Shown: positions 1,737-30,333 of the stretch, in pieces
How the letters are laid out: each line of letters begins with the position of its first letter
Position numbering within the stretch: position 1 is the first letter of the stretch
Position numbers and translations under genes: made by a program
The notes under the pieces: model-generated
Databases searched by the model: none
The model's input: only the letters and a program-made list of their open reading frames with translations
Told to the model about the DNA's origin: nothing
Assembly (NCBI GenBank): GCA_021292105.1
Contig: CM037870.1
Span: 19,499,424-19,563,423, forward strand
Reading direction: 5' to 3'
Origin: Anadara kagoshimensis
Taxonomy: Eukaryota > Mollusca > Bivalvia > Arcoida > Arcidae
Length of the DNA stretch: 64,000 nucleotides

Positions 1737-4700
1737 ATGACTGAGAAGGTAATATATTTGTCATAAACCGAAATTATTTTAAAAGTCGCCTATCTGAACT
1801 TGATATCTGAAGGTGACTTATTAATAAGTGCCAAGTCAGTCTGAACACAAGGAACTGAAACAGTTTTAACAAAAAGTACGATAGAATCATTATAAAACAA
1901 CACATAGTGATTTATAGTGATTTGATCGTATTAAAAATAATAAATAACAGAATCATTTGGCCTAAGTGTGTGTTGGGATGCCAACCCAAGTTAGATGCCA
2001 CTGTTATTGGTTTTTAGGCTGTGATATTTTATCATGTTTATTTCTGAAATAAAGTTGGTTAATGTTCAAATAAAAACTGGTGCCAGTGACATTGTTGGAA
2101 AAGGGACTTTCATAAATGAACAAGTTTTGTTGGTGCAGTACACTGCCACCCCACCCCGCTTGGAAAGAATAAATTTTATACATTCTTAAAGCTGAATATT
2201 ACAGACTTTTGTTCTCTCGTGAAAAGTTTCAATTGATTGAGCTGAGATTTATAGAAATTGGATAATGATAAACTATTGCAATGCATTTTTTATTTTCTGC
2301 CTTTTAAGAAAGAGAGGGAAATTAAGTTCAGCTTCTGTCCCTCCAGACACTTCTTGTCCTAGGATAAGTCTCCAAAATTATAAAACACCATTTTACAAAA
2401 CTTGATGATAGCATCAACACTGGCCAGAGATGTACATGTATACCATTTTTCAAAGTTTTGCTGATTTCCTGTGTGTTATGGCCCTTTGACCATATCTGCA
2501 AATCAGAAAAGGGTATGAACTGATGGGTGATCCTAAATCACTGAATTTTCTTGTTAAATTTTATTTCAGATGAAACCAGGTATGAGAGTGGTCCGAGGAC
2601 CAGACTGGAGTTCAAAGAAGCAAGATAACGGGGAAGGGTTCTTAGGAACCATCATATTTGTACCTAAAAAGGGATCCAGTGACAACAAAGTTACTGTAAT
2701 ATGGGACTCTGGAAGGGAGCTTCGATATCGTGCCGGCCACGATGGAAAATGTGACCTCAGGGTATTTGATTCTGCTCCTGCAGGTAATTAATATGATCAG
2801 ATGACAATTTTATTGTATTTGGTGGTTGAATTTGGTCAACATTTGAAAATTTGAAAATATAGGTATAGCACTGCAATTCATCAATTTAGCTAATTGCTAA
2901 TTTTTTTATATTTTTATGAAAATAGCTTTTGGCTTATGTTTAAATTATTTTCTCCCATATTCTTTCATAAATTTATTTAGAATGATGACAAAATTTATAT
3001 AAGTGCATGCAGTAAACTTCAGTTCTATGCTGCAATTTGTTCAGTCAGATTTTGGCGTTATAAAGAGATTTGGCAGTAAGTTGAGGTAAAATTATAAAGA
3101 AAAATATGAATGAAATAGATTTCTGGATTTCGCTGTTGAAAGTCATGTATTTATAAAAAATTTGATTTGTCAAATTGCAGGGAAATGCAAAATGCACTAA
3201 TTTAATATGCCAGTCGCATGCATTCTTTGTTGTGTCATACATGCAACTTTGAAAACCCCTGACAGCTATAGTAATAGTTTCTCCTATGCCTTATTAGGGG
3301 TGTAACGCTATGCCAAAAATCATATTGCAATATACAGCAGAATTTCTAAACTGTACTGCAGATATGTAATGACTATGTATACAGGTGTATCTTTTTTGTT
3401 TCTAGAACAAACACTTACATTCAAATTATAAAGAAACATTGATTAATTTTGCAGTACAAATGTATTTAATAGTGAAATCAGATCCTATTTGCACGATTTT
3501 ATTGTATCAGAAGTTTCAGAACATTACGATATTTGAAATTTGTATCACAGTAATTAATTGAAAGCCTATTAAACCAGTTTTACCAGTATGTCGGTAAATC
3601 CTTACACCTCTATGTTTTATATTTCAGGAATCATTCACAAACACATAACGTGTGATGAGTGTAATGATACACCAATCAAAGGTATGAGGTGGAAGTGTTG
3701 TGTCTGTGTAGATTTTGATTTGTGTACAGTGTGTTATATGAAGGGAAAACATGATTTAAACCATGGTTTTGTAAGAATGGAAATGGACCAATCAACTGCG
3801 TAAGTTAAAATTTATTATTTTTTTCCTTTTTTTTTCACCGTCTGTTGTGCATTGTCCACAATATGTTAACATTTCACATTTTAATCATTTCCTCCAAAAC
3901 TACTGGGCCAAATTTGATGAAACTTACTGACTATCATGCCTGAGTGAAGGGCTTTAAGATTTGCACAAATGAAGGAGTTATGTCCTCTTGTTTATTTATC
4001 AGTTTTTTTCAATGTTTGGGGCCAAAAAACATTTGAACTGTCTATGTAGTCCTTTCAGTAAATTTACTATTGGATTCACTGTGTTTTTGTAAAATTACTA
4101 TGTGCATCTTGATTTCCATGAAATTATCCATTTTTTTCAATGTTTCGGTTCGAAATTTTTCAGCAAGTTTTACACATTTTGGATGTGGTACTATTAGATG
4201 TCTGTGAAATATCAGAACTACATACTGAAACAGTGCAATAAAATATTTAAATTTTTAGAATAAAATTTTGAATATTTTAGATATCCAGTTCCTCCTAGAT
4301 CAAAAGCTACAAAAAAGGCTACAGCTAAAGGAGTATTCCCAAATGCTGAAGTGATGAGAGGACCACATTGGAAATACAAAAATGAAGATGGTATTTAGAA
4401 TTAGTTACAGTCAAACCTGTCTATAAAGACCACCCAAGAGAACCAATAAAAGTAACCTTAATGGGCAGGTGGCCTTTATATACAGGTTCAAATAATATGA
4501 ATTAAGAAAAATTGGGATACATTTTTACTGGATTTTATAAGCAGGTGACCCTTATATAGAGGTGGCCTTTCAGGCAGATTGAACTGTATTTTAAATTTTA
4601 TGATATATAAGATTCATCATGTAAGTCCATCCATCTGTCTGTTTGTCTGTCCATGTAAAATCATGTCCAGACCACATCTCATAATGCTTTGGACAACCGT

Positions 4701-7700
4701 CTTAAAACTTCACATGAATAATCTTCATGGTCCAAAGGTGTCATATTGGAAAGGTCAGTGTCGCATGAAAACATTAGTTTTTGTAGATGGGGGGGGGGGG
4801 GGGGGGGTCTAATTTAACATGCACAGGCCTCTGATAAAGCAGCACTCAGTCACCAGTCTTGACCAAGATGAAACAGTTCAATGATGAGTGGAATTTTTTT
4901 CACACTCTGTCCAGTGCCAAGTAGATTGTAGATTATTTTTCAGACGTCACCCTTCATTCTGGTTAAATTCGTGAAGTTGCCAAAATGTGAATAAAAATAA
5001 AATAAAATAAAGTAAAAAAACTTACATAAAATAAAACATTGTATCTATGTGCTAATTTGCAACTTATTGGCACCGAGTACTTGGCAAGAAGTTTTGAAAA
5101 AATTATCCAAGCTCTGATGGATTATATTAAGGGACCATCAGTTGCAACTTATATTTAGATGTGACATGGTATTGGCCCACTATAGGGACATTGACCGCAC
5201 CACTGGTCATCATTTTGCCATTACATCTTATACCATTGCACAATGGAGTTTTCCAGCATACCATGTGATCAGTACCCTTTAATATTTATGTGGAACATTT
5301 TTGGAAAACCTTTACATCGAAATTTCCCGGAGTTATGTCATTTTTATGAGAAAATGTGAATGGCTGCAATTCCAATGGAAATGGGGTATTACATGGTACA
5401 CTGGCGAACCCCATTACAGTGTTTGACCACATGTTCCCACTAATCGATTATAATGTTGCACGCTTGCTAATGTTACACATTTTTATACTAACAGGAGGTG
5501 AGGGTGAAGTCGGCAAAGTTGTTAAGTTAGTAACATGGAACAACAACTCATACAGGGGTGGTGTACAGATAAAATGGAAATCTATGTCAGATATTAAGAC
5601 GTTCAGACTTGGCGGGGAAGGATGTGTGGATGTTATTTATACTAGAGTCACGGAGAACGCTTCAGGCGGCAATTACTATCCCGAGCATCTTCCACGTGTT
5701 GGTATGTAGAAAATCATAATACAAACTTCCATACCTCAAATACCCTGGAATTTGAGTAATCAAAGTTCTACTGTACAGTAAATGTGCTTAATTTCACCAG
5801 ATCCAATTTTTGCGTTTTTGTAATTTCCGACATTTTTATGGGGTCTTAATATTGGAAACTATTTTTATGAAACTGACTATAAGATAGAGAATTTATATTA
5901 TGTATGGTTTTTACCAGTGATACAATTTTTTTTGGAAAATTTTGAAAGCAAAGAAAGAAAGTTAGTACATGTACAATGCAAAACTATACTAACAGTTTGT
6001 GATCCTTAAAATCAATACTGGTACCACTAGTTGATGCTGATTTTAATGAAATATGGTTCAAAATTTAGTCCAGTTTTGAACATAACGGTCAAAATTCTTT
6101 CACTCACTTGGAGACGATCAGTTCTGGGATGATAGAGGAAACCAGAGGACCTGTAGGAAGCCACATACCTTTGGCAAATAGATTGAAAAACTTTTTCACA
6201 CAAGGACCTGCCAGAATGGGATTCAATGGGGTTCGCCACCATACCACGTGATCAATACCTCTTAACGTGCGTGCGGAACATTTTGGAAAACGTCAACATT
6301 ACAAATTCCCGGAATAACGTTGTTTTTAAGGGAAAGCGTCATAGTGTGCGATTCCATGTCCATTGGAAACAAGCGTTTCACAGACATGTTAGAAGGTATC
6401 ATGTGGTACAGCAGTGAACCCCATTAGTGTATTAGTATTTCTGATTTGTAAATTTATACAATATCATCATAATAAAATCAAATATACCAAATCTTAGTAT
6501 TTCATACTATGCTTTGCAGTCATTTGTCTGTTTGCAAAACACATAGTTCGGAATATTTCATGAATAGACCTTCTACTTTCAGAAGAATGTAGATATAATT
6601 ATGAAATTTCATACTGACCTCTTGTAACTAACCATAAGTATGAGGGAAACTAGCACCACCAAGGCCTTTTAGAATAAAATGGTAAAATTTTGAAAGATAA
6701 CTTTGTGCTCACATTATGAAGGTGCGAGAATGATTAAAACAATTTAAACATTTTACAGATGTTGTGAGTCCAGGAACTGTACCACTGAAGCCAGGAGACA
6801 AAGTCACAGTAAATTTAAGTTTAGATCACTTAAAGACGCTACAAGATAATGATCTATATGGTGGGTGGGATGATGGAAAGAAACAGGTAATTATGTAACC
6901 ATAGTAACAGGAAAGGGAAAACATTGACAAAACTTGAACTTGAACAAAGGTCCTTTCCAATGCTAGAAGGAACTATCTTTTGAGCCTCCCTTCCTTAGTA
7001 ACAGGAAGGGGAAAATGGATTGACCAAACTTGGACTTGAACCCAGGACCCTTACAAATACATTTACTACTGTAGGAACCACTGTGACTGTGACAGTGAAA
7101 TTCTCTTTATATCCATAGAAAATCAAATAAATTTGAATAAAGATTGATATTTTTCACTTACTTGTACCTAGTCGTAACAGGAAATCTGTATGCGCATCCG
7201 CGATTAGCCCAAAATATATCTGCATAGGGAAAAACGTTGGTGCTATGGGGATTTAACTTGTTAAAAAGTCATGCAAATGGCGGCTTCTGTTGCGCATATG
7301 ACGTAAAACGTCACCAAGGACATCACTTCCGGTGTAAACATCGCCATTTTCGCATGTGTTAAATCCCTATACCGCCAACATTTTCCTTTTTACAGACATA
7401 CTTTATGACAATCGCGGATGCGCATACAGATTTCCTGTTACGACTAGGTACAAGTAAGTGAAAAATATCAATCTTTATTCAAATTTATTTGATTGTCTAT
7501 GGATATAAAGAGAATTTCACTGTCACAGTCACAGTGGTTCCTACAGTAGTGGGATGTTCTACTAACTTCAGTTACCTTTTGAGCCTCCCCTCCTTTGTAA
7601 CAGGAAAGGGAAAGATGCAATGACTTGAACCTGTGACCTTCTCAATACTTATTGAATGCTCTATCGACCTGCACCACTTGATCACCTTTTAGCCTGCTCC

Positions 7701-10700
7701 TCCACTTTTCTTCCTTCCCTTTTCTTTATTTACCTACCGTGAATTGAAACAACCAGATTCAACTCTGGGACCAACTTGTAGATTGGCAACTTTAAGGGTC
7801 ACACCAACCCAAAAATGTAAAAGGAATGGGAAAAATGCAGCAGCTAAATCCAGGACATTTCCAATACTAGCTGAATGCTTAAACAACTGAGCTACCTATC
7901 CACCTATTAACACTAGTCTGCCACAATTAAAATGCACTTGTCACCAAGGAGGCCGATTTTGTGACATATCATCTAACCCCTTTATAAATTGCTGTCAAAT
8001 ACTCTAAAAAGAAGTGAAGTAATGGTGTTTTACACCATTTTTGCTGCTGTTTTACAATTTTATTTTACAGTTTAAAAACAAAAATTTATTTAAAAGCATA
8101 CCAGTAATTTCACAAGAATTGGAAAAATTTTCAAAACCAACCAAAAATTCAGAAATAGAGGCAAAACGCCTCTATTGTATATACATGTATATACAATATG
8201 AGAGTTTTTGCCTCTATATCCTAATTTTGTATTTTCTGATAAATTTTTGATTTCTTTGAAAATTTGTTGGAAAATTAACTTTTTACTATGTAAGTTTTTG
8301 TTTGATTGGTTGATTGAATGGGGTTTTACATCCTAGTCAAGAATATTTGACTCATATCGAGATGTCACCAGCTATAGGTGAAGTGGGAGAAATTTTGACC
8401 TTTGTAATGCACTGAGGGCAATGTGCAAGAAGGTTTCTTTAACATGCCATGCCTGCAGTGACACAAGACTTAGGTTTCAGAAGTCTCTTTCAAAGGACCC
8501 TGTGACTTTCATTTCTAAATACCAATTGCTTGGTGAAAGAACAGTCGCTACCTATTTTCAATTCTTGGTCAGGGCCTGGCCAGGATTCAAACCAATGACC
8601 TCCCACATACAGAACGAGCACTATGCCAACTGAGCTCCTGTAGTGGTTGAAACCTTTTACAGAATTACTAAAAGATTTTTTTGGTGACCTTTAACTGATT
8701 CAATCATTACTGAAATTTTTATGCTGTGGCCTAATGGATAAGATGTCAGTCTTCAAATCCAGGGTCTCTCACCGCTGTGAGTTGGAGTCCCACTCGGACC
8801 TCATGTGGGAAAGTGAATTTTCCTTGCCATTGGCCTTTACTGATTCACCTGGTATCAGTCTAATGGACTGGGGGAGTGGTACACTTGTCTGCATTGTACT
8901 GACTCTGTTAGCTGGCACAGTAAAGTCGCCCTGAGTGTGCACTAGTACTAGACAGACCATACGACACACTCGCACTTCACATGCATACATAAAATTGTTC
9001 ATAGATTAATCCATAGAGATCAATAAAATAGTTCTTATCGCGAATAGCTAAAAAATTGCTGATGCGACGTTAAGCAACATTCAACCCACCAACCAAATGA
9101 AAATTTTTATACATGATTCTATTGTAGTGTGTGGAGGAAACAGGGACACTTTTACAGTTGTTGTATCAGGACAAGACAGCAAGAGTTCAGTATGAAGACA
9201 CACAGATATGGCTACTCAACCGACAAGCCCTAACACTGGTATATTTCAATAAATTCATCCTTCATGTAATTACAGTCAAACCTGTCAATCTTTGGGTAGA
9301 GTAGATATGTCATTGGCTATTAGTATTTTGATCATGCAAATGGTCGGGAAAAAATGGATTTCCCATTTGGGGTTCATTCATTTGGGTGACACTTTTGAAA
9401 TGACATCCCAATTTAGTAATTACTTCTTTTTAATATTATTATTTATTCCATTGTTAGATTATATATATATTCTTTATTCATATAAGTATTTTTAGCTCGA
9501 GGCTCATGTTACAATCATTTAATAATTAATACAATTTTTGCATGTGTAAGATGGCAGACTTCAATGTAGTAATTATACAGGGTTTACACTTGATCATACA
9601 TTCTAAGTAACTTTTATACCAAACTTTTTATATATCTGTCTCGCAACATAAATGACAAATAAGCATATTTTCCAATATCATAAATAATGGACATATTGGG
9701 TGTTTTCATAATTTCATAGAAATCATGATATTTAGACAAGTATATATCAATCATACACTCATGCCTTATATCCTTATAAAGTTGACAAAAAATAAAAAAT
9801 GTACTCCGTTTTCTACCTCGTTTATATCCTGAGTTAAACAATATTTGCATAGCCTATTTTCCCTTATAATTTTTTCACTTCTACCCGTTTCTATTTCGAG
9901 ATTATGACTCGACACTCTAAGATTATATAAATAGTGCTCATGCTTGAGGCAAATATGGAGGATTGTCTCCCAAGCCAATTGGCTAAACTAAAAAATGGAA
10001 AAAAGCGTTCTCTTTTATCTTTTATTTTAACATTGTGGAATAATGACTAGGAATAACATTGGTAAGGATGTTTTGGGTACCGTAATCTTGATCAGAATTG
10101 AGGGCTATACAGGGACAGAAGTGGGATTATGGATTACAGAGATGTGCAATATATATTTGGACACTTTGTAAAATCCTTCTTTGTTTCATATAAAACCTCA
10201 TATTTTAAAAAAATTTCTCATAAATTTATTTCTTGGTCAGTTTCCATGAATTTTTCACTGTTAAATGTACAATTTGTTGAAGTGTTTCTTAAAAATAATA
10301 AGAAAAGAAAATTTCATTGTTTTTAATAGATAAACATTTCAAATTCAACGGAAAATTTCTAAAATTGAAATCTATTATATATATTCATGCTTCCCATGGC
10401 TGTTAAAAATTTACCATGCTGTTCACCTTATGGTTTCTTGACTGTTAAAAGACGGACATATTTTGGAAGTTATTGGAAGAAACTACAAGAAATTTTACAT
10501 TTAACAGTGAAAAAATCATGGAAATTGACCAAGAAATAAATTTTTGAGAATTTTTAAAAATATATGGTTTTATATGAAAAAAAGAAGGATTTTTCAAAGT
10601 GTCCGAATATATATTGCACCACTCGGTATTTTGTAGTTTCCATTAGCTTCAGTGCTTAGTGGTGAATTTTGCATTATCACATGGCAATTCAAACAATATG

Positions 10701-18556: not shown

Positions 18557-18592
<36 letters not shown>

Positions 18593-18795
18593 ACTTACTG
18601 CAAATAAGGAATAAGAAGCTATTGAATTGAAATTACTTTCATATTTAAGTAATCCTGGGATGAAATATTTTAATTGAGAGACAATAAGAAGTTATTTTTT
18701 AAACCTGTATTTTGATATTTTCGCTGTACAAAAAAATGCAGGTCTTGGATCTAGATTCTATCCGAAATGTGTCCTGTTGATTAATTACATGGGTA

Positions 18796-18838
<43 letters not shown>

Positions 18839-21800
18839 CATTGATTTTAATCTAACTTGAATGAAATTAAAAATGGGACACTTTCTAAAACAAATATATA
18901 TTAAAATCAATTTGAGGTCATAATATGGCTGTACTAGAGAGAACAGATTTTTTTAAAAAAAAAAACAAAAAATTGGGTTCTTTTTATTATTCCTTCGGAT
19001 AAAAATAAATAAATAAGTAATTTAATTAATTAATTAATTAATCAGAGATATGTAAAGATAATTAAAATGATATTAAATATTAATGAAAATTAATATGAAC
19101 AATATTTTAAATAAAAAATGGAAATTGGGGTTCTTTTATTATTTGTTGTGATAAATGGATATAAATAAATAAAATAAATAAATAAATAATAAATAAATAA
19201 ATAAATTATTATCAAAAGAAATGTAAAATTATATTTTGTAAAAGTATTAGTAAATAGTATATCATACTTAGAGCAAACACAAATATAGTTTTTTTTTTCC
19301 TTATTTATTTCTTATTATGTTTATTTTTTATTAATTTTTTTCTGCTGAAGTCAACTGAAAGACCCAATGCTAAAAATAAATAAATATGTAAAAACAATAG
19401 AAGTTATTTCCGATAAATCTGGGTAATAAATGCAGTTCACTATACAAGCTTCATTTACTAAATAGCTGGGATAACACCTTCTGCGTCACTTCCGGTTTTG
19501 TGCCCTTTTACTACCAAAGGGAGATAACACAGTTTTTCAACAGTTTCAGGACTTTAATTTACGCTGTAGAAAAGGATAGAAATGATTAAAAAATGTTATT
19601 TGTGGCTAAATCGACTTTTTATGATGTAATCTTTCGGAAAATAATACTAAAAAAAATTCGGTTTTTGGTGACCGGTGACCTTTAACCTTCCTTTCTGCCA
19701 AATTAAATTTTGCAGCAGTGTTGGTAGAAAAGTTTATAATGTGAATTAATATGATATTAACAATAGGTTATGATGTCACATGGGTTTTCTTAGGGCTCTA
19801 CACCATTATGAGGGATGTCTTGTAAATATGAATTGACTGTGTGTGGGATATGGAAATCCATGCACAAAACAATTTTTGTATATTTCTGTATAGACAGAAA
19901 AAAATTTTCAATCAATTCTAATAGTGTAATTAATTACAGAATTCACTGAAAGACGACTGTGAAATTGTAATCTATTCTTTGAAACTGTAGAATTTAAATG
20001 ATGTTTCATTAGGAATCAAAATTATGCTGTTTCACTTTCTAATGACATCACATTGTTGATGTTGACAACAATGTGTAGGTTGTTTGCATCTGGTACGGAA
20101 TTGGTGGCCAAGTCGTTCAGCATTGGCAGCCAAGTAGATTGCCTTAGGTTCCCAGTAGTTTGCCATTTGCGGCCAAGTTGTTTGCCTTAGGTTGCCAAGT
20201 AGTTTGCCATTTGCAGCCAAGTTGTTTGCCTTAGGTTGCCAAGTAGTTCAGCATTGGTGGCCAAGTGGTTTGCCTTAGGTTGCCAAGTAGTTCAGCATTG
20301 GTGGCCAAGTGGTTTGCTTTATGTGGCTGAGTAGTTCATCATTGGTGGCCAAGTGGTTTGCCTTATGTGGCCGAGTAGTTCAGCATTGGTTGCCAAGTGG
20401 TTTGCTTTATGTGGCTGAGTAGTTCAGCATTGGCAGCCAAGTGGTTTGGTTTAGGTTTTCAAGTAGTTCAGCATTGGTGGCCAAGTGGTTTGGTTTAGGT
20501 TGTCAAGTAGTTCAGCATTGGTGGCCAAGTGGTTTGCCTTAGGTTGCCAAGTAGTTCAGCATTGGCTGCTGAGTGGTTTGCCTTAGGTTCCCAAGTAGTT
20601 CAGCATTGGTGGCCAAGTGGTTTGCCTTAGGTTGCCAAGTAGTTCAGTATTGGCAGCTGAGTGGTCTAAAGCTTAAAGTGCCTCACCACTTAGGTATAAA
20701 ACACATTCTGAGCTGGTTCCAGTGTGAGAGTAAACATGCATATCAGTTTATTTGCTTGTCGAAGGTCCGTGGTTTTCTCAGGGCAATCTGGTTTCTTTCA
20801 CTATTTCTGAACTGACTACTGCTATATAAGTGAAAAATCTTGACTGAGGCGTGTAAAAAAAACAAAAAGAAAAAAAAAAACACAAGACAGAAAAAAGAAG
20901 AAGAAAAAAACACCAACTAAATATGGTTTAAAGATTTTACCTATACCTGTAAAGAAATAATATTTCAACCAATTAAAAAACTGTATTTGTGTAAAATTTT
21001 AATTTTTCAGGATGGCGACAAGGACACAGCAATGCATGATGCAATAGTACAAACAGAAGGACAACCAGCCATATTGACAGCCGTTCTGACTGCCCCAACT
21101 GCCGACTTTGGTACATTAAATGGCAAAGGTTTCAATGTTCTCCAGTGGGCAACTTTAAAAAATAATAACCAGTTAGTATTTATACAGTCAAATTTGCCTC
21201 TATGGCTCAGTGGTAGAGCGTCTGGCTCAAGAAAGGGAAATTGTGGGTTTAAACCTTGGCAGGGTTACATAACAGACTAAAATTTGAGATATTGCTTCCA
21301 GTAAACCACAACATATTGAAAGTTATTTCTTATATTTACAATATCAATTGACATTTCTGTTTAGAATTTTCAAAAGTCCAATCATTTTAGTATGACAAAA
21401 TACTGGTCATCATTTCTCATTAGCTGATTGTGTCAGTGAATAGAAGAATACCATTTATCCCTGCCAAGAATTTAGCTCCGCCTTCTTTGATGTTATTTCA
21501 TTCCTTCTATGATGTCACAATAAACAACCTCAACCAAAATCAGATTTGACTAGAGGTTGACATGTCATGCTAGTTTACTGAAATGTTAATTATTCTTGAA
21601 TATAAGTTTATGTAAGAAAAAAGTCAGTGAATGTAAATAGTAGTGTTAAGAATTGATGTATCACTGACCACGCCCACAATGTTTCGACAAATGCCTGGCA
21701 TGCTTGAACTACACGCAAAAAGAACAAAAACTTGGCCTGAATAGCGCCATTTAATGACATCACTGACACTAGTACGTCATTAGTTGCGGCCTTTGTCAGA

Positions 21801-24800
21801 ACATTGTGGGCGTGGCTGGCGATACATCAATTGTATTTTACTTACTGTAAAGGGTATTATTTTCACGGGGTGAAAATTTTGCGATTTCTGAATTCTGACA
21901 TTTCCGGTGGGTGTAATTTCCACATTACCAATATAAGTGTGTGTAAAATCTGTATACTATGTTGTCAATTTCACGCGGGGAAAAATTTAGCAGTAATATC
22001 TTTAGCGAGAAATAAGCGAAATTTTTACCCATGCGAAAATTTCCCCCTTTACTTAAATTGCATTTTAATCCGTTTCAGAGCTGTAGAAGTTGCTGTAGGA
22101 AGAAATAAGAAAATTATAAATGATCACATGAACCAAGGTTTTACCGCCCTCCATGTCGCTGCAGCAAATGACTATGTGGAAATATGTAGTATTCTTGTGA
22201 CAAAGGTAAGGTGTTAGGGCACATTCCAAAATCCTAAACATAGAGGAGATCTTGCTGTCTCTGGCTAAGGACGAGCATGGGTACATTAGCAAAGTCAAAT
22301 CCAGTGGTGTGGTTAATGTCCTGTTGATGGGCCCACCTGCCCCTCTAGGTTATTTTGTAATCGGTGCTCCCAAAATACACTTATAGAATATATACAGTTT
22401 AACTTGCCTTAAAGACCACCTCTAAATAAGGGTCACCCGCTTATAAAGGCCAGTAGACTTGTATCCCAATTGTTCTTTATTTTATATTATTTGAACCTTT
22501 GAAAAGCCACCTGCCCTTAAAGCCAGTTTTACTGGTTCCCTTGGGTGGCCTTTATAGACCAGTTTGATTGTATATAATAACTTATAATACACCTTCTCTG
22601 TGATGCTCTGTCTTTGGCAGTTGCCCTTGCTGATGCCCAGATCTTTCATCCGAATTGCGTTCTTTTCTTTCTCTGTTGTTCTGTACAATTTTGTTTTTGG
22701 CTGACCTTCAGAGATGTGCAAGAAATATTCGGACACTTTGTAAAATTCTTTTTTTTTTATATGAAGACATGTATTTTTTAAAAATTCTCAAAAATTTATT
22801 TCTTGATCAATTTCCATGAATTTTTCACCCTTAAATCTAAAATTTTTTGTAGTTTCTTCCAGTAATTTTCAAAATACTGTCCGTCTTATAACAATCAAGA
22901 AAACATAAGTTTAACAGCATTGTAAATTTTTAATAGCCATGTGAAGAAACATGATTTTATAGTAGATTTCAATTATACAAATTTTCTGTTGAATTTGAAA
23001 TGTTTATCTATTAAAAACAACGAAATTCCCTTTTCTAATTATTTTTAAGAAAAACTTCAACAAATTTTACGTTTAACAGTGAAAAATTCATGGAAATTGG
23101 TATTTAGCTCTTAAGAGACAGTTCTAGTTGTTCATTCCTCTATAAAAGCATGAAACAGTTCAAATTACGTTGTCAGGTGAGCTACAGTGTTGTTTGATGA
23201 CTGTTTTTATTTTATATTACCCAGGGGCAGGCAGATATTAATGCTCTCGATGACAATAAGCGTACACCATTAATAGTTGCCGTATCACAGACACACAAGC
23301 GTACAGTGGAATTTTTAATCACATGTGGTAAGAATTCATCTTCAGTTTTGTAATGTAGAACCATAAATATTCTCCAGGTTAAACTTCATTATATAAGACA
23401 CCTTTAGTAATCCTTTGGCTTGTATGGACTTGTTTTCTCTTTGCACTGCCTTGCAAGTGTCAGCGAGAATTTAGAATTTTAATTTTTCCAATCTTTAAGG
23501 CAGAAGACAGTTTTTAAACAGTGTAACAAAATCACATGTAAAATATATTAGGTTCAAGCAGACAGGTCAGTGTTGTTTTAGATTATACAACATTTTGTGT
23601 AAATGGAACAGTTTCATTTAATGACAATAGATGTATCGCCAGCCATGCCTTTTATGTCCTGACACTGGACGCTAAAACAGTACCAAAGCAGCGTCATAGC
23701 AATAAACGATGTACTAGTATCAGTGACGTCATTAAATGGCACAATTCCGGCCGAGTTTTCATTCTTTTTGTGTGTAATTCAAGCATGCCGGGTCTTTGTC
23801 GGAACATTGTGGGCCTGGCCGGCGATACGTCAATTGTGTAAACATAAATTTTTGTAAACATGGAAACCTGAGTGACTACTTCAGAAAATATGCATTTACA
23901 TTTCTTTTTTATTTAAGATAAATAAGACACCTCTACAGATTATATGTTAGGCAGTGTTCATTCTTGGTTTCATTCAGAAGGAGCTATTTTCAAAAACTTC
24001 TAAAACGCTGTAACATCACTTTCATGTACAGTCTTACCTGCCTTAAAGGCCACCTCTATATAAGGGTCATCTGTTTGTAAAGGCCAGTAGAATTGTATCC
24101 AAATTATTCTTTATTCATATAATTTGAACCTGTATATGAAGGCCACCTGCTAATAAAGACCACTTTTACTGGTTCCGTTGGATGACCTTTATAGACAGGT
24201 TTGACTGTAATGTTTAATATGGCCCTCTGAGGCCTTAATAATTGGGTCATTCGGCAATATATGGGAATTATGGCCCCATGGCCCCATCTAGAATGAACAC
24301 TGATTATGGGTATAATATCCTCTAAAACAAACATTTAACCTTTGAACTGTCTAGAAATGGCGTTAATAGTGCTATAACTTCCATTGCCATGCAAAGCAAA
24401 CTGAATAACGCATGCTAGCCAATCATGTGTATAGACAAAAGCATGAACAGAGATTTTTCTGACCTTTTTGGGAAAAGGACCTTGGGATGAAATTGGGAAA
24501 ATGCTCAACAAAAATGTAATTTTGGGAAAATCACAACAACATATTAAAAATTCTAGACCACTAGAATACTGGTAATTGAACAAATTATATCGGTGTTCAC
24601 AGCAAAATAGCGATGTCTTTTGTCTCTATATAAATCATCCAGCAAAATGTGGGTTAATATAGATTAAAATCGTTATCAGAACGAGATATCCTCCGAATAT
24701 AATGTTGATGATCTTGTGAAATTTTTTTTCTCAAAAAATTGATAAACATAGCTAATTGGGAATTTTTTACTACAGAATTGGGGAAAATGTATGTTTTTTT

Positions 24801-27800
24801 GCATTGGGAATGGGTCCCTTTACCGGACCCTGTGGATACCCAGAAAAATCCCTGATGAAATGTAAATATAGTCCAATACTGTAAAAATAATTACTTTCAC
24901 GGTGTACTAATTTTTGCTTATTCCGCATGCATTTATTTTGTGCAAAAATCAATACAGAGCGAAAATTATATTATGCTTATAGTAATATAGTGCACACGAA
25001 AATATAACTACGCTATTATATGTGTAAATTTTCTATACCGCGAAAATATATACACGCGAAATTAAATGTGTTTACAGTAATTACATTTGGTCACAAACAG
25101 AGTTTCATATTATAAAACATCACAAATGTAAATACATGTATAGTTTTTGGTTCACCTAAATCGAAATAACTTTACTATTGTTTTACAGCTTGTAATGTGA
25201 ATGTTAAAGATGAAAATGGAAACACAGCTCTACATATTGCACAGCTGAAGCAGACTCTTCCGAAACAAGTAAAAATATAACATTTTATTCCTTGGCATCT
25301 CTGTCTGCCTACATATCATCTTCGCTCTCACTATGTACCACTATGACAGCTCAGTGGTAGCATGCTCACTCGTTCTATATGTGGGAGGTTGTGGGTTTGA
25401 ACCCCGGCCAGGTCTGACCAAGACTTGAAAATGAGTTTTTTAGTCAAGCACTCGGTATTTATAAGGTCCACAGGTATTCACAGGGTCCTTCGTTACAGAC
25501 CTTAAAAATATAGGTCCCCTGTCACTGCAGGCATGGCACGTTAAAGAACCCCACCTCACATTGCACAGGTAAAAAAATTTGCAATTTTACCTATAACTGC
25601 TGAATCTTCTCTGCTTTATTTCATCGATGATAGATTTTGAATTTTTCATTTTGCAATAAATCAACATTTGTGATTGATTTTGATATTGGGCCATCATATT
25701 TACAAATTTAACAAAGACAGCTTTGGTGGAAACTAGACAGAGATGCCATATCTGCTTTTGTGTCTCTAAAGCATTTACTTCCAAACATCAATACTAATTT
25801 CACATTGTTGCATCGCTCTATAAGTGTACAAAAAAGCCAATCAGTAGTAAAGCTTTTCTGACAGTTTTAGTACTGTAAACACATTTTGGCACTGCACTAA
25901 TTTTAGCGATTTTTTCTCTCTTTGATGAAACATGCAGAAGCAATTGTATTGCAATTCCCCTGACAGATAATTGGGCTCATGACCCTTGATGTGTTTCAAT
26001 TTTCCCGCAATATTACATCATGTTCCACACAGGGAGTCACATGTTTGTGTGTCATACGCCGATCTTGCATGGCTGAAAACCCTATCTAACACGAGCAGAT
26101 ATTGAGAAAATAGTGCCAAGTTACAAAATAGTTATTAAAAGAAAGGATTGTAAATATAAGAAATGACATTTCTGCTCATGGTACCTCAAGGGGTAATGCA
26201 AGATAGTGTGGCATGTGTCAAATTTAAAATGAAGGGCTTTGCCCTGATCAAATTTGGCATGCACCACACTATCTTGCATTACCCCTTGAAATAACATGAC
26301 CCGAATGTCATTTCTTAAAATTTGCCTTTGTTTTTAGCTTGTACAGTTAATGGGAGTCAAACAAGATGAAGATGTTAGTACACAGATAATATGTCGTCTT
26401 ATTGAGGCTCAAGCTGACATCTATGCAAAGAACAATAAAGGAGAAACACCCATTGACTTGGCTCCGGATTATATGGTCAAGGAGTTTATGAAAAAGTAAG
26501 TTAAGCATGAACTTTAATCAGAGACTTAGATAAGCAGGGGCCAAGTAGCCAATTTCTCCTGTATGGGGTTCTAAATTTTACACTTCAGCTACCACTGCGG
26601 TATCTCAGTTGGTAGAGTGCTCGCTTCGTAAGTGGGAGGTCGTGGGTTCGATCTCTGGCCGGGTCTGACCCAAGACTTGAAAGTGGGTAGTGACTGTTCT
26701 TTCGCCAAACACTACGAAATGAAAGTCACGGTTCTTTTAGATGGGAACTTAAAATAAATGAGGTCCCGTGTCATGGTGGGCTTGGCACGATAAAGAACCC
26801 TGTCATCAGCGCAATGCCCAGGCAAAATTTCTGTACCTTTTGCCTATAGCTGGCGATGTCTCGATATAAGTGAAATATTCTTGACTTGGATGTTAAACAC
26901 CATTACTCAACTGAACTCACTTCAGCTAGTTATCACTATTCTGACTTCTTTTCTGACATGATCTGGGTTCCCAATTAAGAAAAGTTGAGCTTTATCCCTG
27001 CTAATGGCAACATCGTATTTACCACCCAATCATGGTTTACACAACCCTAATTTCTATCACTTCACCTATCATTGGTGACATCTCAATATAAGTGAAATAT
27101 TCCTGACTGGGATGTAATACCAAATCAATCAATCAATCCACTCACATATACATGTAGTAATATAGAATCTTACACTGGTAACAGGGTAAGACAGAGATAT
27201 CTCAAATGAGGATGAATATTTTCGTGTTCAGAACGAGCTTTAGCTATATTTTCCTATATTTTTGTTACTGGTAGCTTCATGAATTCAGAATTGGGACATT
27301 TTTCCCGTATTTAGTACATATCTGAAGCAAGATTAACATTTATGTATTTTTAAAGCAGTAAGTGTACATTGCAGTTGCCAATGTTTTATGTTTATTAGTA
27401 AAAGGAATAAAGGGAATCGCTGAAGGGGAGGAAAGAAGGTCATGGATGCATATTTTATGTGTAAACTCTTTAAAAATATTCCTATAACTTTATTGAAAAC
27501 TCCTATAATTTCCTATAAAACTCCTATAATTTCCTATAAAACTCCTATAACTTCCTATAAAACTCCTATAATTTTGGCCCCCATATTCCTACTTTGCCTA
27601 TATTTTTGGACCCCAAAATTGGTAGCAACCCCTGCGAGTGGATAATCAAAGCCCTTTTAATATGCTAATATTATTTGAAAATCAGTAATTTAATACCTAT
27701 CTGTTTTGCAGATTAGCGGACCAATCCAAAAGACCAGATACTTTTGGCAAAACCCAAAAGGGAATACAAATACCGTCCAATTGGTCTCAGATGGACAAAA

Positions 27801-30333
27801 CACTCCAGTTTCAGTGTTTTAAACTAAACATGTCAAACGGAATGGAACAGATTGAATACAAAAGTATTGAGCAGAAATTTCACAAAACATTGCCACAGGC
27901 GAAGATACTACAAATAGAGAGAGTTCAGAATATGCATCTGTGGGAAGTCTATTGCTTGTAAGTATTGTCATACCCCGAGGAGTATTTAGGATTCACCATG
28001 TCTGTCTGTCTCTGTCCATCCGTCTGTCTCTGTCCATCCGTCTGTCTCTTTCCATCCGTCTGTCTGTCTATCTGTGTGAAATCCTGTCCAGGCCATATCT
28101 CATAGCTGCTTTGGACAACTGTCATAAAATTTCACACAAATAATCTTCATGGTCCAAAGGTGTGTCATGACCTTGAACCAAGGTCATATCAGAAAGGTCA
28201 AGGTCATGGGAAAACATTAAATGCTTGGGACGGGGTGTATTTGGGTCTCAAAAGACAGTTCTAGTTTTAAAATGGTAGCTGTAAATCGGAGAATGATACA
28301 TTCACCAAGCACTTGGCATTTATAAAATGGAAGTAATGTGGTCCTTTGACAGAGACTTTAAAATTCGATACCCTGCAGGTGTGGCACATTGAAGAACCCT
28401 CCCTGCACATTGCCCTGAGCAAACTGCAAAGGTAAAAATTTCTGCCACTTGACCTACATGTATATAACTGGTATATCTGGTGATGTCTCAATATAAGTAT
28501 TGCTTGTAAGTATTGTTTTAAAATGGTTGCCATAAATCAGAAATTGATGCACTTTGCATAAATTTATAAAATGAAAGTCACAGGGTCCTTAAGAAGACAC
28601 CTAAAACATTGATACCTGACAGGTGTGGCACATTAAAGAACCCTCTTTGCACATTGCAAAGGTAAAAATTTCTGCCACTTCACCTATAGCTGCTGATGTC
28701 TCAATATAAGTCTATTGCTTGTAAGTATGGTTTTAAAATCGTTCCCTTAAATCAGAAAATGATACATTCACCAAGCACTTGGCATTAATAAAATGGAAGT
28801 CACAGGGTCCTTAAGAAGAGACCTTAAACATTGATATACGGCAGGTGTGGCACATGTACATTGGTGAACCCTCCCTGCACTTTGCCCTGAGCACACCGCA
28901 AAGGTTAAAAATTTCTGCCACTTCACCTATATAGCTAACAATGTCTTGATTTACTAGTAAGTGAAATATTCTTGACTGGGACTTAAAACTATTCACTTAA
29001 GCGATCCAAAATTTAAGTTTTTGGAAAATAAAACGTTCTTGAATATTTCATTTTGATATTCATGTACAGTACAACATGTTTATAACGAAGCCTTGGGGAC
29101 TCTAACTTCGTTGTAAAGCAACTATGTTATACAGTAGACCTACCTATAAAAGCTACTCTAGAGAACCAGTGAAAGTGGCCTTTATAGGCAAGTGGCCTTA
29201 ATATACAGGTTCAAATAATATGAAAAAAGATCAATTTTGATACAATTTTACTGGCCTTTATAAGCAGGTTGCACTTATATAGAGGTGGCCTTTAAGGCAG
29301 GTTGGACTGTATTATAATAAATAAATTTATATAGAGTAGCTGTCAGGCCCAATACTTGACTTTGAACTATCCATGTATTCGGTGTGAGTGTGTTTGTTAT
29401 ATTTGTGGTTTACTGTAATTCATTTCCATTTGACCTGACTGCTAAGATAAAAACATGTGTACTTAATTAATATGACGATTTTTACGAAAATTAACAGAGG
29501 TGAAAATTTCCCAATTTATAGTATGCTGTTCTTCTTGAATAGATGTACAATTTAGAAAGGGGCCTTGCACTTTTGTCCCAAAACAATAATATTATCCCCG
29601 TCAAAAACTGTCTGTGGGCCTACCTGGCCCGTCTTTTTTTAAGTCAAAGTTGAGTTTTGAATAAATCCAATTTTGACTATTTCTAATTAACATTTTTTCT
29701 TTGACTTAATACCAAGGTTTTGAAGTAAAATTCCTTAAGTTTTATAATTGTCAATCAAATTTTGGAAAACATGGCCTGCATTTCCCAGGCCTTGGCCAGG
29801 ATGACCCCACCCACCACATTTCTAGTTTGAACCCTGCTGAGATGTTCTTTAGCAAATAAGATTACTGATTAAAAACAGATGTTATTGTGATTTTGATGTT
29901 GTCTTTTTATAGAACAAGAAGAAATATGGAAAACAGATTGGGTCCGGGGTTTGTTAATGAGCAGGAGCTTTATCATGGGACTGTTCCAGAGATTGTCGAA
30001 AATATCTGCAAAGAAAATTTTGATTTCCGATTGTCAGGCGATCGTGTCGGAACTTTATTTGGAAGAGGAGCCTATTTTGCTGTGGAATCGAAATATTCCG
30101 ATCTTTATGCCAAGCCTGATGAGAAGAGACATAAGTATATGTTTGTGGCAAAGGTGTTAGCAGGAAAGGTTTCCCTAGGGCACTCGGAGCTCAAACGACC
30201 GCCACCCATCAATCCTAATGATAAGCATTCCCATCTGTATGATGCTTGTGTAGACAATGTTTCCAATCCAAAAATCTATTGTGTTTTTGACAAAAACCAG
30301 TATTATCCAGAATACATAATTAAGTACAACTAA
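1737..30333 (+). CDS. Mind bomb-like protein with C-terminal PARP (ADP-ribosyltransferase) domain instead of RING fingers
   Basis: I joined 19 exons by GT/AG sites and phase: 1737-1748, 2570-2783, 3628-3799, 4281-4390, 5495-5701, 6759-6886, 9128-9238, 10790-10894, 12584-12791, 14291-14436, 15233-15381, 17231-17387, 21011-21171, 22079-22205, 23225-23327, 25189-25268, 26338-26495, 27712-27957, 29913-30333. They total 3015 nt, giving 1004 residues plus TAA with no frame break. Domain order: MIB/HERC2 about 5-76, ZZ finger 84-121, MIB/HERC2 about 151-238, Mib repeats about 239-390, acidic linker 404-412, ankyrin repeats about 448-782, PARP catalytic about 805-1004. The first 780 residues follow Mind bomb E3 ligases, which bind Notch ligands; the RING fingers expected next are absent. 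Function is inferred: mono-ADP-ribosylation of a target chosen by the MIB/ankyrin part. The start is the weakest point: exon 1 gives only four codons, and the Met at 2570 is a reasonable alternative. Further 5' UTR exons are possible. Confidence 0.87.
4407..4590 (+). mobile_element. CAGTCAAACCTG short inverted-repeat element, copy 1
   Basis: It starts TACAGTCAAACCTG and ends near GATTGAACTGTA, about 185 bp. The inside is rich in GGCCTTTATA and its complement, so the whole element folds back. Intact copies are flanked by TA, which suggests a Tc1/mariner-type non-autonomous element. Other copies: 13778-13910, 17045-17202, 22391-22575, 24030-24212, 29130-29312, 32806-32972, 34191-35330 (expanded), 46024-46209, 55566-55740, 55800-55864, 60076-60500 (interrupted), 60502-60668. 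Confidence 0.75.
5236..5421. mobile_element. AATGGGGTTC inverted-repeat element, diverged copy
   Basis: The ends resemble AATGGAGTTTTCC...TACCATGTGATC and ACATGGTACACTGGCGAACCCCATT. Related copies: 6217-6426, 51128-51315, 58198-58400. About 200 bp each, no ORF. Confidence 0.6.
6217..6426. mobile_element. AATGGGGTTC inverted-repeat element
   Basis: Left end AATGGGGTTCGCCACCATAC, right end TACAGCAGTGAACCCCATT. Terminal inverted repeats of about 30 bp surround a core containing CCGGAATAACGTTGTTTTTA. Confidence 0.75.
7066..7549 (+). mobile_element. 484-bp foldback element (CTACTGTAGGAACC), intact copy
   Basis: Both ends carry long inverted repeats of more than 120 bp: CTACTGTAGGAACCACTGTG at the left and its complement at 7530-7549. 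The repeats continue through TGTATGCGCATCCGCGATT. There is no ORF. TA flanks are consistent with a mariner-type MITE but the palindrome makes the exact edge ambiguous. Another copy of identical length is at 52138-52621. Partial or diverged copies: 34877-35251, 35925-36413, 43950-44610. Confidence 0.85.
8290..8650 (-). mobile_element. tRNA-headed SINE, family 1, inverted copy
   Basis: The reverse complement begins with a tRNA-like head (GAGCTCAGTTGGCATAGTGC) and ends with the family tail (ATATTCTTGACTAGGATGTA). Confidence 0.7.
8724..9105 (+). mobile_element. tRNA-headed SINE, family 2
   Basis: The head GTGGCCTAATGGATAAGATG is tRNA-like. The body includes GTGAATTTTCCTTGCCATTG and ACACTCGCACTTCACATGC, and the end is GACGTTAAGCAACATTCAACC. 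A second copy is inverted at 44690-45235, interrupted by about 170 bp. Confidence 0.7.
9540..9980 (-). pseudogene. Reverse-transcriptase-type retroelement C-terminal fragment with frameshift
   Basis: The minus frame from 9978 reads SSHNLEIETGR...CKYCL...VHFLF, a pattern common near the C-terminus of invertebrate non-LTR element polyproteins. The match continues in another frame from about 9810 down to 9614 (CQLYKDIRHECM...YLSFMLRDR). The two parts are out of phase, so the copy is broken. In intron 7 of MIB-PARP. Confidence 0.5.
10127..10622. mobile_element. GGTGCAATATAT foldback element, about 0.49 kb
   Basis: The left arm GTGCAATATATATTTGGACA...AAAATCCTTCTTTG and the right arm (complement, ending GTCCGAATATATATTGCACC) pair over roughly 200 bp each. 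No ORF. Partial copies at 22712-23102 and 59893-59945. Confidence 0.8.
11440..11722 (+). mobile_element. tRNA-headed SINE, family 1
   Basis: A-box-like TAGCTCAGTGGGTAGAG is followed by a B-box-like GTTTGAACCC. The body is the usual family body and the tail reads TATTCTTGCCTGGGACATTAA. In intron 8 of MIB-PARP. Confidence 0.75.
12975..13105 (+). mobile_element. Short copy of the 3'-end retroelement-like repeat
   Basis: It matches 240-365 of the window, starting at GAGCACCC and ending at the shared terminus GGATTAGTATGTTTG. It lies in intron 9 of the MIB-PARP gene, next to a minisatellite. Confidence 0.55.
13252..13593. repeat. 38-bp minisatellite, nine units
   Basis: GACTTAATG starts recur every 38 bp from 13252 to 13556, nearly identical (unit contains TCACTCCAACAACAAATTAG). 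In intron 9. Confidence 0.95.
13778..13910 (+). mobile_element. CAGTCAAACCTG element, truncated copy joined to another repeat
   Basis: It begins TTACAGCCAAACCTG and keeps the GTGGCCTTTAAGG core. The 3' part is lost and the sequence runs into a piece of the CAGTGTTCATTC repeat family (AACATTACATGAATAC). Confidence 0.6.
13965..14245 (+). repeat. Dispersed GTCCGTCC-type repeat
   Basis: It contains GTCCGTCCGTCC, then a TTTCATGAAACTTTCACACA core and TTTTTCTAGTTTTAAAATGG at the end. Related copies: 4605-4812, 27967-28275, 53130-53328. The core recalls a repeat common in mollusc genomes. Confidence 0.6.
14291..26495 (+). CDS. Ankyrin-repeat exons of the MIB-PARP gene (exons 10-17)
   Basis: Eight exons encode about nine ankyrin-type repeats, residues about 448-782. 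Repeat cores are visible as GKSALQIACYYGH, GDTPVHYATFG, GQAAIHIAV, GFNVLQWATL, GFTALHVAAANDYVEI, KRTPLIVAV, GNTALHIA and GETPIDLAP. The last repeat ends close to exon 17, at the place where Mind bomb proteins pass into their RING region. Repeat order and spacing follow Mind bomb rather than tankyrase, which also combines ankyrins with a PARP domain but has far more repeats plus a SAM domain and no MIB/ZZ modules. Intron 12 (17388-21010) is the largest of this block and holds a 2.3-kb transposon and a minisatellite. Confidence 0.88.
14423..14618 (+). repeat. 98-bp tandem duplication containing the exon 10 donor
   Basis: 14423-14520 repeats as 14521-14618. Each copy has CTAATCCCGATAAA directly followed by GTAAG, so the last 14 exon bases and the donor are duplicated in the intron. 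Confidence 0.92.
14770..15063 (+). mobile_element. Dispersed 0.29-kb repeat (AAGGTAGTTTCCC type)
   Basis: It matches 39496-39790 along its length (AAGGTAGTTTCCC, CACAATATAACATC-like core, AAATGTAACAAAACCACTG end). Partial copies lie at 23455-23535 and at 47543-48730, where a hAT-like element interrupts it. Confidence 0.65.
15396..15652. mobile_element. AACAACATTGACCTGTC inverted-repeat element
   Basis: Left GCAAACAACATTGACCTGTC, right GACAGGTCAATGTTGTTTAC. A second copy lies at 40122-40364. A half copy lies near 23550-23582. Confidence 0.75.
16267..16606 (+). mobile_element. tRNA-headed SINE, family 1, best-preserved copy
   Basis: Head with A box GGTAGCTCAGTTGGTAGAG and B box GGGTTCGAACCC. 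The body contains AAGACTTGAAAGTGGGTAG and GGCACGCTAAAGAACCC. The tail is GAAATATTCTTGACTGGGAC plus an ATTACTCAACTCAACTCA end. About 340 bp. Similar tails recur through the window as fragments (10990-11218, 27053-27135, 37905-38100). Confidence 0.85.
16648..16848. mobile_element. Small element with ACAGTAAAACC ends
   Basis: Left TACAGTAAAACCTTTTATTA, right TGTGGTTTTACTGTA, about 200 bp with no ORF. In intron 11. Confidence 0.55.
17045..17202 (+). mobile_element. CAGTCAAACCTG element, 5'-truncated copy 30 bp before exon 12
   Basis: It retains GTGGCCTTTATGGGCAGG to GGCAGTTTGGACTGTA. The missing part is the left inverted repeat. It ends about 30 bp upstream of the exon 12 acceptor at 17230. Confidence 0.65.
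17407..19681. mobile_element. 2275-bp element with AGGTCACCGGTCACCAAA ends flanked by TTAA
   Basis: The terminal inverted repeat AGGTCACCGGTCACCAAA is at 17407. Its complement TTTGGTGACCGGTGACCT ends at 19681. TTAA flanks both sides (17403-17406, 19682-19685), as with piggyBac-type insertion. The interior is very AT-rich with (ATT)n at 18559-18590 and (AAT)n at 18797-18836. No transposase frame is visible, so it is non-autonomous. Confidence 0.82.
20090..20670. repeat. 44-bp minisatellite made of two 22-bp half-units
   Basis: GTTGCCAAGTAGTTCAGCAT and GGCCAAGTGGTTTGCCTTAG alternate about 13 times with substitutions. In intron 12. Confidence 0.9.
21653..21834. mobile_element. Short inverted-repeat element with CACGCCCACAATGTT arms
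   Basis: Left TTGATGTATCACTGACCACG, right GGCTGGCGATACATCAA. The arms pair over about 35 bp. A related copy lies at 23628-23842, on the other side of exon 14. Confidence 0.75.
22391..22575 (-). mobile_element. CAGTCAAACCTG element copy
   Basis: Inverted copy in intron 14 of the MIB-PARP gene, from ACAGTTTAACTTGCC to CCAGTTTGATTGTA. Confidence 0.7.
22560..22712 (-). pseudogene. Non-LTR retrotransposon 3' tail fragment
   Basis: The minus strand reads ATEKEKNAI-like then KDLGISKGNCQRQS, matching the tail at 49275-49530. It is embedded between a CAGTCAAACCTG element and a GGTGCAATATAT element. Confidence 0.5.
22712..23102. mobile_element. GGTGCAATATAT foldback element, missing one end
   Basis: It starts GATGTGCAAGAAATATTCGG and continues to GAAAAATTCATGGAAATTGG, where it stops before the terminal arm. 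Confidence 0.65.
23628..23842. mobile_element. Short inverted-repeat element related to 21653-21834
   Basis: It starts GATGTATCGCCAGCCATGCC and ends GGCCGGCGATACGTCAATTG. It shares the TGACGTCATTAAATGGC core. Confidence 0.7.
23951..24302. mobile_element. hAT-like MITE (CAGTGTTCATTC) carrying a nested element
   Basis: Ends CAGTGTTCATTCTTGG and TCTAGAATGAACACTG. A CAGTCAAACCTG element occupies 24030-24212 inside it. In intron 15. Confidence 0.7.
24030..24212 (-). mobile_element. CAGTCAAACCTG element nested in a hAT-like element
   Basis: Near-complete copy (ACAGTCTTACCTGCC to GACAGGTTTGACTGTA). It is inserted inside the CAGTGTTCATTC element that spans 23951-24302. Confidence 0.7.
25343..25610 (+). 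mobile_element. tRNA-headed SINE, family 1, diverged
   Basis: Head CAGCTCAGTGGTAGCATGC and B box GGGTTTGAACCCC, then the family body ending near CCTATAACTGCTGAATC. In intron 16. Confidence 0.65.
26155..26318. repeat. Foldback sequence 20 bp before exon 17
   Basis: The arms AAGAAATGACATTTC...GGGGTAATGCAAGATAGTGT...AAATTT and their complement pair over about 75 bp, separated by a few bases around GGGCTTTGCCC. Confidence 0.85.
26590..26928 (+). mobile_element. tRNA-headed SINE, family 1
   Basis: CACTGCGGTATCTCAGTTGG head, GGGTTCGATCTC B box, full body and CATTACTCAACTGAACTCA end. In intron 17. Confidence 0.8.
27712..30333 (+). CDS. PARP catalytic exons of the MIB-PARP gene (exons 18-19)
   Basis: Exon 18 starts inside a Lys codon completed from exon 17 and encodes the N-terminal half of a PARP fold (FQCFKLNMSNGMEQIEY, RVQNMHLWEVY). 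Exon 19 encodes the C-terminal half. It has the nicotinamide-site HGT (H886), GTLFGRGAYF (Y919), the YSDLY segment and a terminal YPEYIIKY. The third triad position is I986, in the NPKIYCVF segment. H-Y-I is the pattern of the PARP7/10/11/12 group, which transfer single ADP-ribose units; chain-forming PARPs have Glu there. The exon 18 start has no initiator context, which argues that this is a fused domain rather than a separate PARP gene. Stop TAA is at 30331-30333. Confidence 0.9.
27967..28275 (+). repeat. Dispersed GTCTGTCC-type repeat in intron 18
   Basis: A local (CTGTCTCTGTCCATCCGT)n run is followed by CATGGTCCAAAGGTGTGTCA and AGACAGTTCTAGTTTTAAAA. It lies directly after the exon 18 donor. 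Confidence 0.6.
28276..29000 (+). repeat. Tandem copies of SINE tail plus exon 18 donor sequence
   Basis: A unit of about 220 bp occurs three times. Each has GATACATTCACCAAGC, a GGTAAAAATTTCTGCC segment and an AATATAAGT end. Two unit junctions (about 28494 and 28711) carry TATTGCTTGTAAGTAT, the same as the exon 18 end and donor at 27950-27965. Confidence 0.8.
29130..29312 (+). mobile_element. CAGTCAAACCTG element copy in the last intron of MIB-PARP
   Basis: It runs from TACAGTAGACCTACC to GCAGGTTGGACTGTA, with the usual internal GGCCTTTATA tracts. Confidence 0.7.

Follow-up and report, generated by a model that had tools for sequence, protein, structure and literature searches.

A Mind bomb-type recognition half joined to a predicted mono-ADP-ribosyltransferase domain in the bivalve Anadara kagoshimensis

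Gene structure at the locus

The window, the 64-kb stretch of DNA analysed here, corresponds to C14:19499424-19563423 in a 1.115-Gb assembly, and positions below are counted from its first letter unless a contig is named. Its forward strand carries, at 1737-30333, a gene of 19 coding exons that we call MIB-PARP. When rebuilt from the raw sequence, the joined exons amount to 3015 nt and form a single open frame of 1004 residues plus a stop, with GT-AG borders at 18 of 18 introns. The model was read from the genomic sequence with splice sites picked by eye, and its 12-nt first coding exon (1737-1748, encoding MTEK from the first ATG) is based on the ATG, the donor, the frame and an identical sequence in the second copy of the gene described below. 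As judged from this model, MIB-PARP is an intact gene.

According to the gene model and Pfam, exon 2 (2570-2783) encodes the first MIB_HERC2 domain, exon 3 (3628-3799) the ZZ zinc finger, exon 4 (4281-4390) a linker and the start of the second MIB_HERC2 domain, and exon 5 (5495-5701) that second domain. Each of the two Mind bomb SH3 repeats is divided between two exons: structure matches place the first and second parts of repeat 1 in exons 6 (6759-6886) and 7 (9128-9238), and Pfam together with structure matches places those of repeat 2 in exons 8 (10790-10894) and 9 (12584-12791), the latter also encoding an acidic linker. Exon 10 (14291-14436) supplies a linker and the start of the ankyrin region, which Pfam follows through exons 11 (15233-15381), 12 (17231-17387), 13 (21011-21171), 14 (22079-22205), 15 (23225-23327) and 16 (25189-25268). 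The last ankyrin repeat lies in exon 17 (26338-26495), which ends in phase 2, as does the last ankyrin exon of a RING-bearing relative (relative C, below). The fusion point is the phase-2 intron 17 (26496-27711); in relative C the corresponding intron is followed by a RING exon. Exon 18 (27712-27957) encodes the N-terminal part of the PARP catalytic domain, and exon 19 (29913-30333) the catalytic core with H886, Y919 and I986, followed by the stop.

Two details of the exon borders were also observed. Retention of intron 17 would bring a stop directly after the ankyrin repeats (26494-26500), so that a short form without RING and without PARP could easily be made. A 98-base tandem duplication (14423-14617) takes in the last part of exon 10 together with its donor and leaves a second copy of this donor inside intron 10. 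Elsewhere in the window, an open frame of 1103 residues on the reverse strand (60688-63999) runs off the window end and has only weak C2H2 zinc-finger matches, and an exon of an NDUFB5/SGDH-like complex I subunit (Pfam 1.2e-08) lies on the forward strand at 47184-47474.

Domain architecture and predicted catalysis

The encoded protein consists of MIB_HERC2-ZZ-MIB_HERC2, two Mind bomb SH3 repeats, an ankyrin block and a PARP catalytic domain, in this order. The underlying Pfam matches, MIB_HERC2 (6.9e-37, two stretches), ZZ (5.9e-10), SH3_15, the 'Mind bomb SH3 repeat' (1.6e-23, two stretches), Ank_2 (8.3e-45) and PARP (1.1e-23, residues 831-1003), all exceed the curated cut-offs of that database. 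Judged by eye only, the ankyrin repeats number 9 to 10, close to the nine or so of an earlier reading. Compared with solved structures, the N-terminal half matches MIB1 4xi6 (E 1.6e-76, residues 8-387) and also the MIB1 fragment 4tse. For the last 223 residues the best match is PARP12 2pqf (E 1.4e-41), followed by PARP15 and PARP14; PARP13 is among the matches as well, and the tankyrases are far weaker, tankyrase-2 being the best of them at 5.8e-9.

No RING finger appears in the Pfam table of the protein, and a RING pattern applied to all six frames of the window had 0 matches; the same pattern does detect the RING of relative C, and it would miss a RING interrupted by an intron. Among the 149 RING places listed genome-wide (150 of 543 candidates scored), none lies inside the gene. 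WWE was found neither in the protein by Pfam nor in the window, and CCCH, macro, SAM, WGR and PRD domains are likewise absent from the Pfam table of the protein. The original prediction, made from the sequence of the window, had read 1004 continuous residues across 19 exons and had described a Mind bomb-type protein with this domain order, in which the RING fingers were missing and the catalytic half had been exchanged for a PARP domain. The raw-sequence rebuild returned the identical length, Pfam and the solved structures confirmed the architecture, and Pfam together with the six-frame pattern agreed on the lack of a RING.

In alignments with PARP12 and PARP15, H886, Y919 and I986 fall on the catalytic residues. 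H-Y-I or H-Y-L, rather than H-Y-E, is the pattern of mono-ADP-ribosyltransferases, which attach one ADP-ribose per site. A mono-ADP-ribosyltransferase is thus the likeliest identity of the protein, as predicted from the H-Y-I alignment. The human PARPs of the PARP12-like group add a single ADP-ribose unit, as stated in the available text of a review (PMC8066025). The same text describes PARP13 as inactive (PMC8066025), and since PARP13 is also matched by the PARP half, the PARP end might be catalytically silent and the protein a decoy or scaffold of the PARP13 kind. We consider this very unlikely: H886, Y919 and I986, as well as the HGT, GxGxYF and YPEY motifs, are kept both in the window protein (A) and in a diverged paralogue (B, described below), and A and B are more conserved in the PARP core than in the ankyrin block.

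A diverged paralogue and a second copy

Searches of the genome for the PARP and MIB_HERC2 families converge on 20 kb at C14:41.52-41.54 Mb, where the matches lie on the same strand and in the right order. Paralogue B, read at this place, has 18 coding exons and 960 residues and is 39% identical to A over 1012 columns; Pfam finds two MIB_HERC2 domains, ZZ, two SH3_15 repeats, ankyrin and PARP, ordered as in A. Intron phases agree in 17 of 17 introns between exons 2 and 19, a comparison that is not blind, the splice sites of B having been chosen by eye with the phases of A known, and in which the open frames leave little freedom. Identity between A and B is 62% in the first MIB domain (61 columns), 38% in the ankyrin block (329 columns), 40% in the N-terminal part of the PARP domain (80 columns) and 54% in the PARP core (131 columns).

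When the Mind bomb halves of eight sequences, five of which fill just 125 to 295 of 400 columns, are placed in a tree, A and B form a group (UFBoot 89 and 91 in two cuts) and have long branches. The tree of the PARP half, with seven sequences, likewise groups them (UFBoot 96). Phylogeny of both halves, suggested earlier as a check, groups A with B in each half, in trees that are small, unrooted and drawn without human MIB2, PARP7 and PARP11. Since both trees unite A and B, one fusion with duplication afterwards would be the simplest account, and it is well supported by these sequences.

A second copy of MIB-PARP itself starts at C14:17476217 and extends to 17502048, about 2 Mb away, with all 19 exons and splice sites kept. 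The two coding sequences differ at 37 of 3015 nt, comprising 30 synonymous and 7 amino-acid differences (dS 0.047, dN 0.0030), and sequence constraint acts on the gene between the two copies. The PARP exons are identical (0/246 nt differ in exon 18 and 0/421 in exon 19, or 0/667 together), and dN/dS is not computable there. The DNA around the copies aligns in long pieces at about 88-97%, with many indels. Since part of the flanking zinc-finger gene (61500-62700, near the other end of the window) is also present twice (97%, C14:17533388), and several other genes are likewise paired, some of them inverted, the second copy is likely to be the other haplotype and not a new gene. Such paired genes on one contig look like haplotypes placed side by side by the assembly.

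These loci bear directly on whether MIB-PARP is one gene. Its model was built from genomic sequence alone, and intron 17, whose retention would truncate the protein directly behind the ankyrin block, holds two AATAAA/ATTAAA motifs; an in-frame ATG at 27791 (residue 810) in exon 18 precedes the Pfam PARP start at 831 and is a possible separate start. On these grounds, the model could in principle have merged a Mind bomb gene lacking a RING with an adjacent PARP gene, or could reflect an assembly join. However, the joined order is repeated in the second copy and in the diverged paralogue B, a single open frame runs through 18 of 18 introns, and the ATG at residue 810 falls within a stretch already aligned with PARP15. 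Moreover, neither the protein nor the window contains WWE, whereas two PARP genes of this genome have WWE in their upstream exons. We therefore regard the two-gene reading as extremely improbable; the second copy and paralogue B together led us to reject separate genes, and they also rule out the assembly join of two loci that the original prediction had named among the things that would refute it. The fusion is real, as the same fusion is kept in the genome as an old second gene.

Other Mind bomb genes in the genome

The genome also has the separate canonical mib gene whose presence had been raised as a question: at C4:1.914 Mb lies a mib1 whose N-terminus is 90% identical to human MIB1 (165 columns), and three RING matches follow on that strand some 50 kb downstream. 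A second Mind bomb gene, at C14:33.04 Mb, is 56% identical to human MIB1 and is followed, some 40 kb downstream, by two RING matches; in both genes the RINGs are assigned by position only. Relative C, at C14:14.56 Mb, was partly read and shows matches for 13 of the 16 exons from 2 to 17. It is 48% identical to human MIB1, and its RING exon, with one RING match, comes after the last ankyrin exon. The corresponding value for the Mind bomb half of A is 43% (222 columns). Two more Mind bomb-like genes are found in tandem (48.16 and 48.18 Mb) at C14:48.157-48.182 Mb, with copies near 50.0 Mb; neither has a RING or PARP match nearby among the matches listed (for RING, 150 of 543 candidates scored).

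Origin of the fusion

The intron phases on both sides of the fusion point fit together. The last ankyrin exon of relative C ends in phase 2 and its RING exon starts in phase 2. A WWE-PARP gene at C14:1.755 Mb, read by eye, has a WWE exon (Pfam 5e-11) that ends in phase 2 and a phase-2 intron that joins its two PARP exons. The window gene has the same phase 2 at both junctions, from the last ankyrin exon to the first PARP exon and from there to the second. With phases matching in this way, a two-exon PARP module could replace a RING exon and leave the frame unbroken. Probably the RING exon or exons of a Mind bomb gene were exchanged, across a phase-2 intron, for the pair of catalytic exons from a PARP12-like PARP gene, and duplication after this single fusion gave rise to A and B. 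The phases are observed and the route is one that we infer from them; exon shuffling is the likely origin of the fusion, and the matching phase-2 introns make the gene a clear candidate for the exchange of a catalytic domain by this means.

WWE exons upstream of PARP genes were confirmed by Pfam at L046:1782-2000 (5e-11) and L047:9203-9433 (1.1e-11); two other upstream exons taken as WWE by eye were left unconfirmed by Pfam (0.34 and 0.15). In a full-protein search, with 46 of 690 candidates scored, all six places listed for the PARP core (residues ~863-1003) are on C14, and the search with the PARP family gives matches across many contigs.

Discussion

Each half of MIB-PARP has well-known relatives. 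The Mind bomb E3 ligases, MIB1 and MIB2, have the same MIB_HERC2-ZZ-MIB_HERC2 unit, two SH3 repeats and ankyrin block in the same order; unlike them, the window protein has no RING that we could find and carries a PARP catalytic domain instead. With the PARP12-like group (PARP7, PARP10, PARP11, PARP12, PARP14 and PARP15) it shares the catalytic domain, the H-Y-I residues and the two-exon phase-2 structure seen in the WWE-PARP gene of this genome, but it is without WWE, CCCH and macro domains by Pfam, and its N-terminus comes from Mind bomb. Accessory domains vary among the members of that group. The tankyrases (ankyrin-SAM-PARP) also place a PARP catalytic domain after ankyrin repeats, yet the window protein lacks SAM by Pfam, scores 1.4e-41 with PARP12 against 5.8e-9 at best with tankyrase-2, and has I as its third catalytic residue, where the tankyrases have E.

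Ankyrin repeats are also combined with PARP in the clade 1 ankyrin PARPs, namely PME-5 of C. elegans and ADPRT3 of Dictyostelium, and ankyrin PARPs are reported from Naegleria and Monosiga in the available text of two PARP family surveys (PMC4245714, PMC2964712). As far as that text goes, clade 1 members carry WGR and PRD, neither of which Pfam finds in the window protein, and no Mind bomb part is mentioned for the ankyrin PARPs (PMC4245714, PMC2964712). Identity as a tankyrase or as a clade 1 ankyrin PARP was rejected by domains and structure scores. The U-box-macro-PARP of Dictyostelium, in the accessible portion of PMC2964712, likewise unites a PARP with a ubiquitin-ligase part in one protein; there, however, a catalytic U-box has been added to the PARP, whereas the window protein keeps the recognition half and lacks the RING. 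The word MIB is absent from the available text of both surveys (PMC2964712, PMC4245714), as is 'mind bomb' from that of PMC4245714, and a full-text literature search, judged by titles and the starts of abstracts and set to papers rather than animal protein records, returned no description of a Mind bomb-PARP protein. A known recognition module and a known catalytic module thus appear to be joined here in a combination that is new, stable and duplicated, and the product is probably a targeted ADP-ribosylating enzyme of a new kind. Judging by its domains, it should work as a targeted PARP and, because the search for a RING failed, not as a Mind bomb ligase.

How would such an enzyme act? In our preferred reading, to which we give a probability of roughly 0.55, MIB-PARP is an intact mono-ADP-ribosyltransferase with the client-recognition half of Mind bomb, and its clients are of the TBK1/NEMO kind. 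Its MIB/ZZ/MIB, SH3 and ankyrin modules would hold a client that is also held by the Mind bomb ligases, the PARP end would put ADP-ribose on it where Mind bomb adds ubiquitin, and Mind bomb signalling would thereby be rewired or opposed. Innate immune signalling proteins such as TBK1 and NEMO are proposed as the likeliest client class. In the available parts of the literature, MIB1 and MIB2 are reported to modify TBK1 with K63 ubiquitin once an RNA virus has infected the cell (PMC3445589), TBK1 is mono-ADP-ribosylated by PARP7, and NEMO is modified by PARP10, which prevents its K63 ubiquitination (PMC8066025). For the antiviral role that the original prediction had allowed for, these sources therefore speak for each half separately, and the joint role is what we infer. 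Against the sharing of clients stands the divergence of the Mind bomb half (43% to human MIB1), in the course of which the ancestral clients may have dropped out.

Even so, those clients of Mind bomb that act in innate signalling would seem a better fit than Notch ligands. The MIB-ZZ-MIB unit and SH3 repeats of MIB1 bind Notch ligands. Both are complete in MIB-PARP, and the solved MIB1 fragments 4xi6 and 4tse match them, so that the protein might bind Delta/Jagged tails and ADP-ribosylate them or compete with Mib1, as the original prediction had proposed. Yet the recognition half is only 43% identical to human MIB1, against 90% for the mib1 of the same genome, and A and B sit on long branches of the Mind bomb-half tree; the Notch job thus probably stays with mib1. 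This argument is weakened, and is not specific to MIB-PARP, in that the RING-bearing relatives have diverged as well (48% and 56% to human MIB1). We now take ADP-ribosylation of Delta/Jagged to be the weaker reading and rate it as quite unlikely. A role as a direct defence effector, whose recognition half would bind pathogen proteins or pathogen-modified host proteins and whose PARP end would mark them, also strikes us as unlikely. The PARP half is nearest to PARP12, viral proteins are ADP-ribosylated by PARP12 according to the available text of PMC8066025, and several Mind bomb-like paralogues occur on one chromosome, but the pattern between the two copies is purifying and not diversifying. 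One scan of viral contigs with six peptide patterns, which reach close relatives only, gave 0 matches.

Returning to the preferred reading of a mono-ADP-ribosyltransferase on Mind bomb clients, a more far-reaching form of it is possible, and we put it forward tentatively: a stable family with a swapped modification, in which shared clients receive either ADP-ribose from MIB-PARP or ubiquitin from Mind bomb, would amount to a switch encoded in the genome. Targeting and catalysis are usually hard to separate in E3 ligases and PARPs. The present case is a natural swap experiment, with one recognition half and two catalytic ends that coexist in one genome. Provided that clients are shared, MIB-PARP would separate the signals that need Mind bomb binding from those that need ubiquitin, and it would offer a tangible example of ubiquitin and ADP-ribose crosstalk.

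Repeats in the window

A dispersed repeat of about 190 bases occupies 34193-34889 and is scattered elsewhere in the window, for example at 22389-22572, 24023-24209 and 29127-29312; by eye, a 76-base tandem array resembles an expanded piece of it. Rfam reports four tRNA matches, at 16265-16335, 33544-33607, 43268-43338 and 43485-43554, at least one of which falls inside a dispersed repeat. All four are probably tRNA-derived short repeats.
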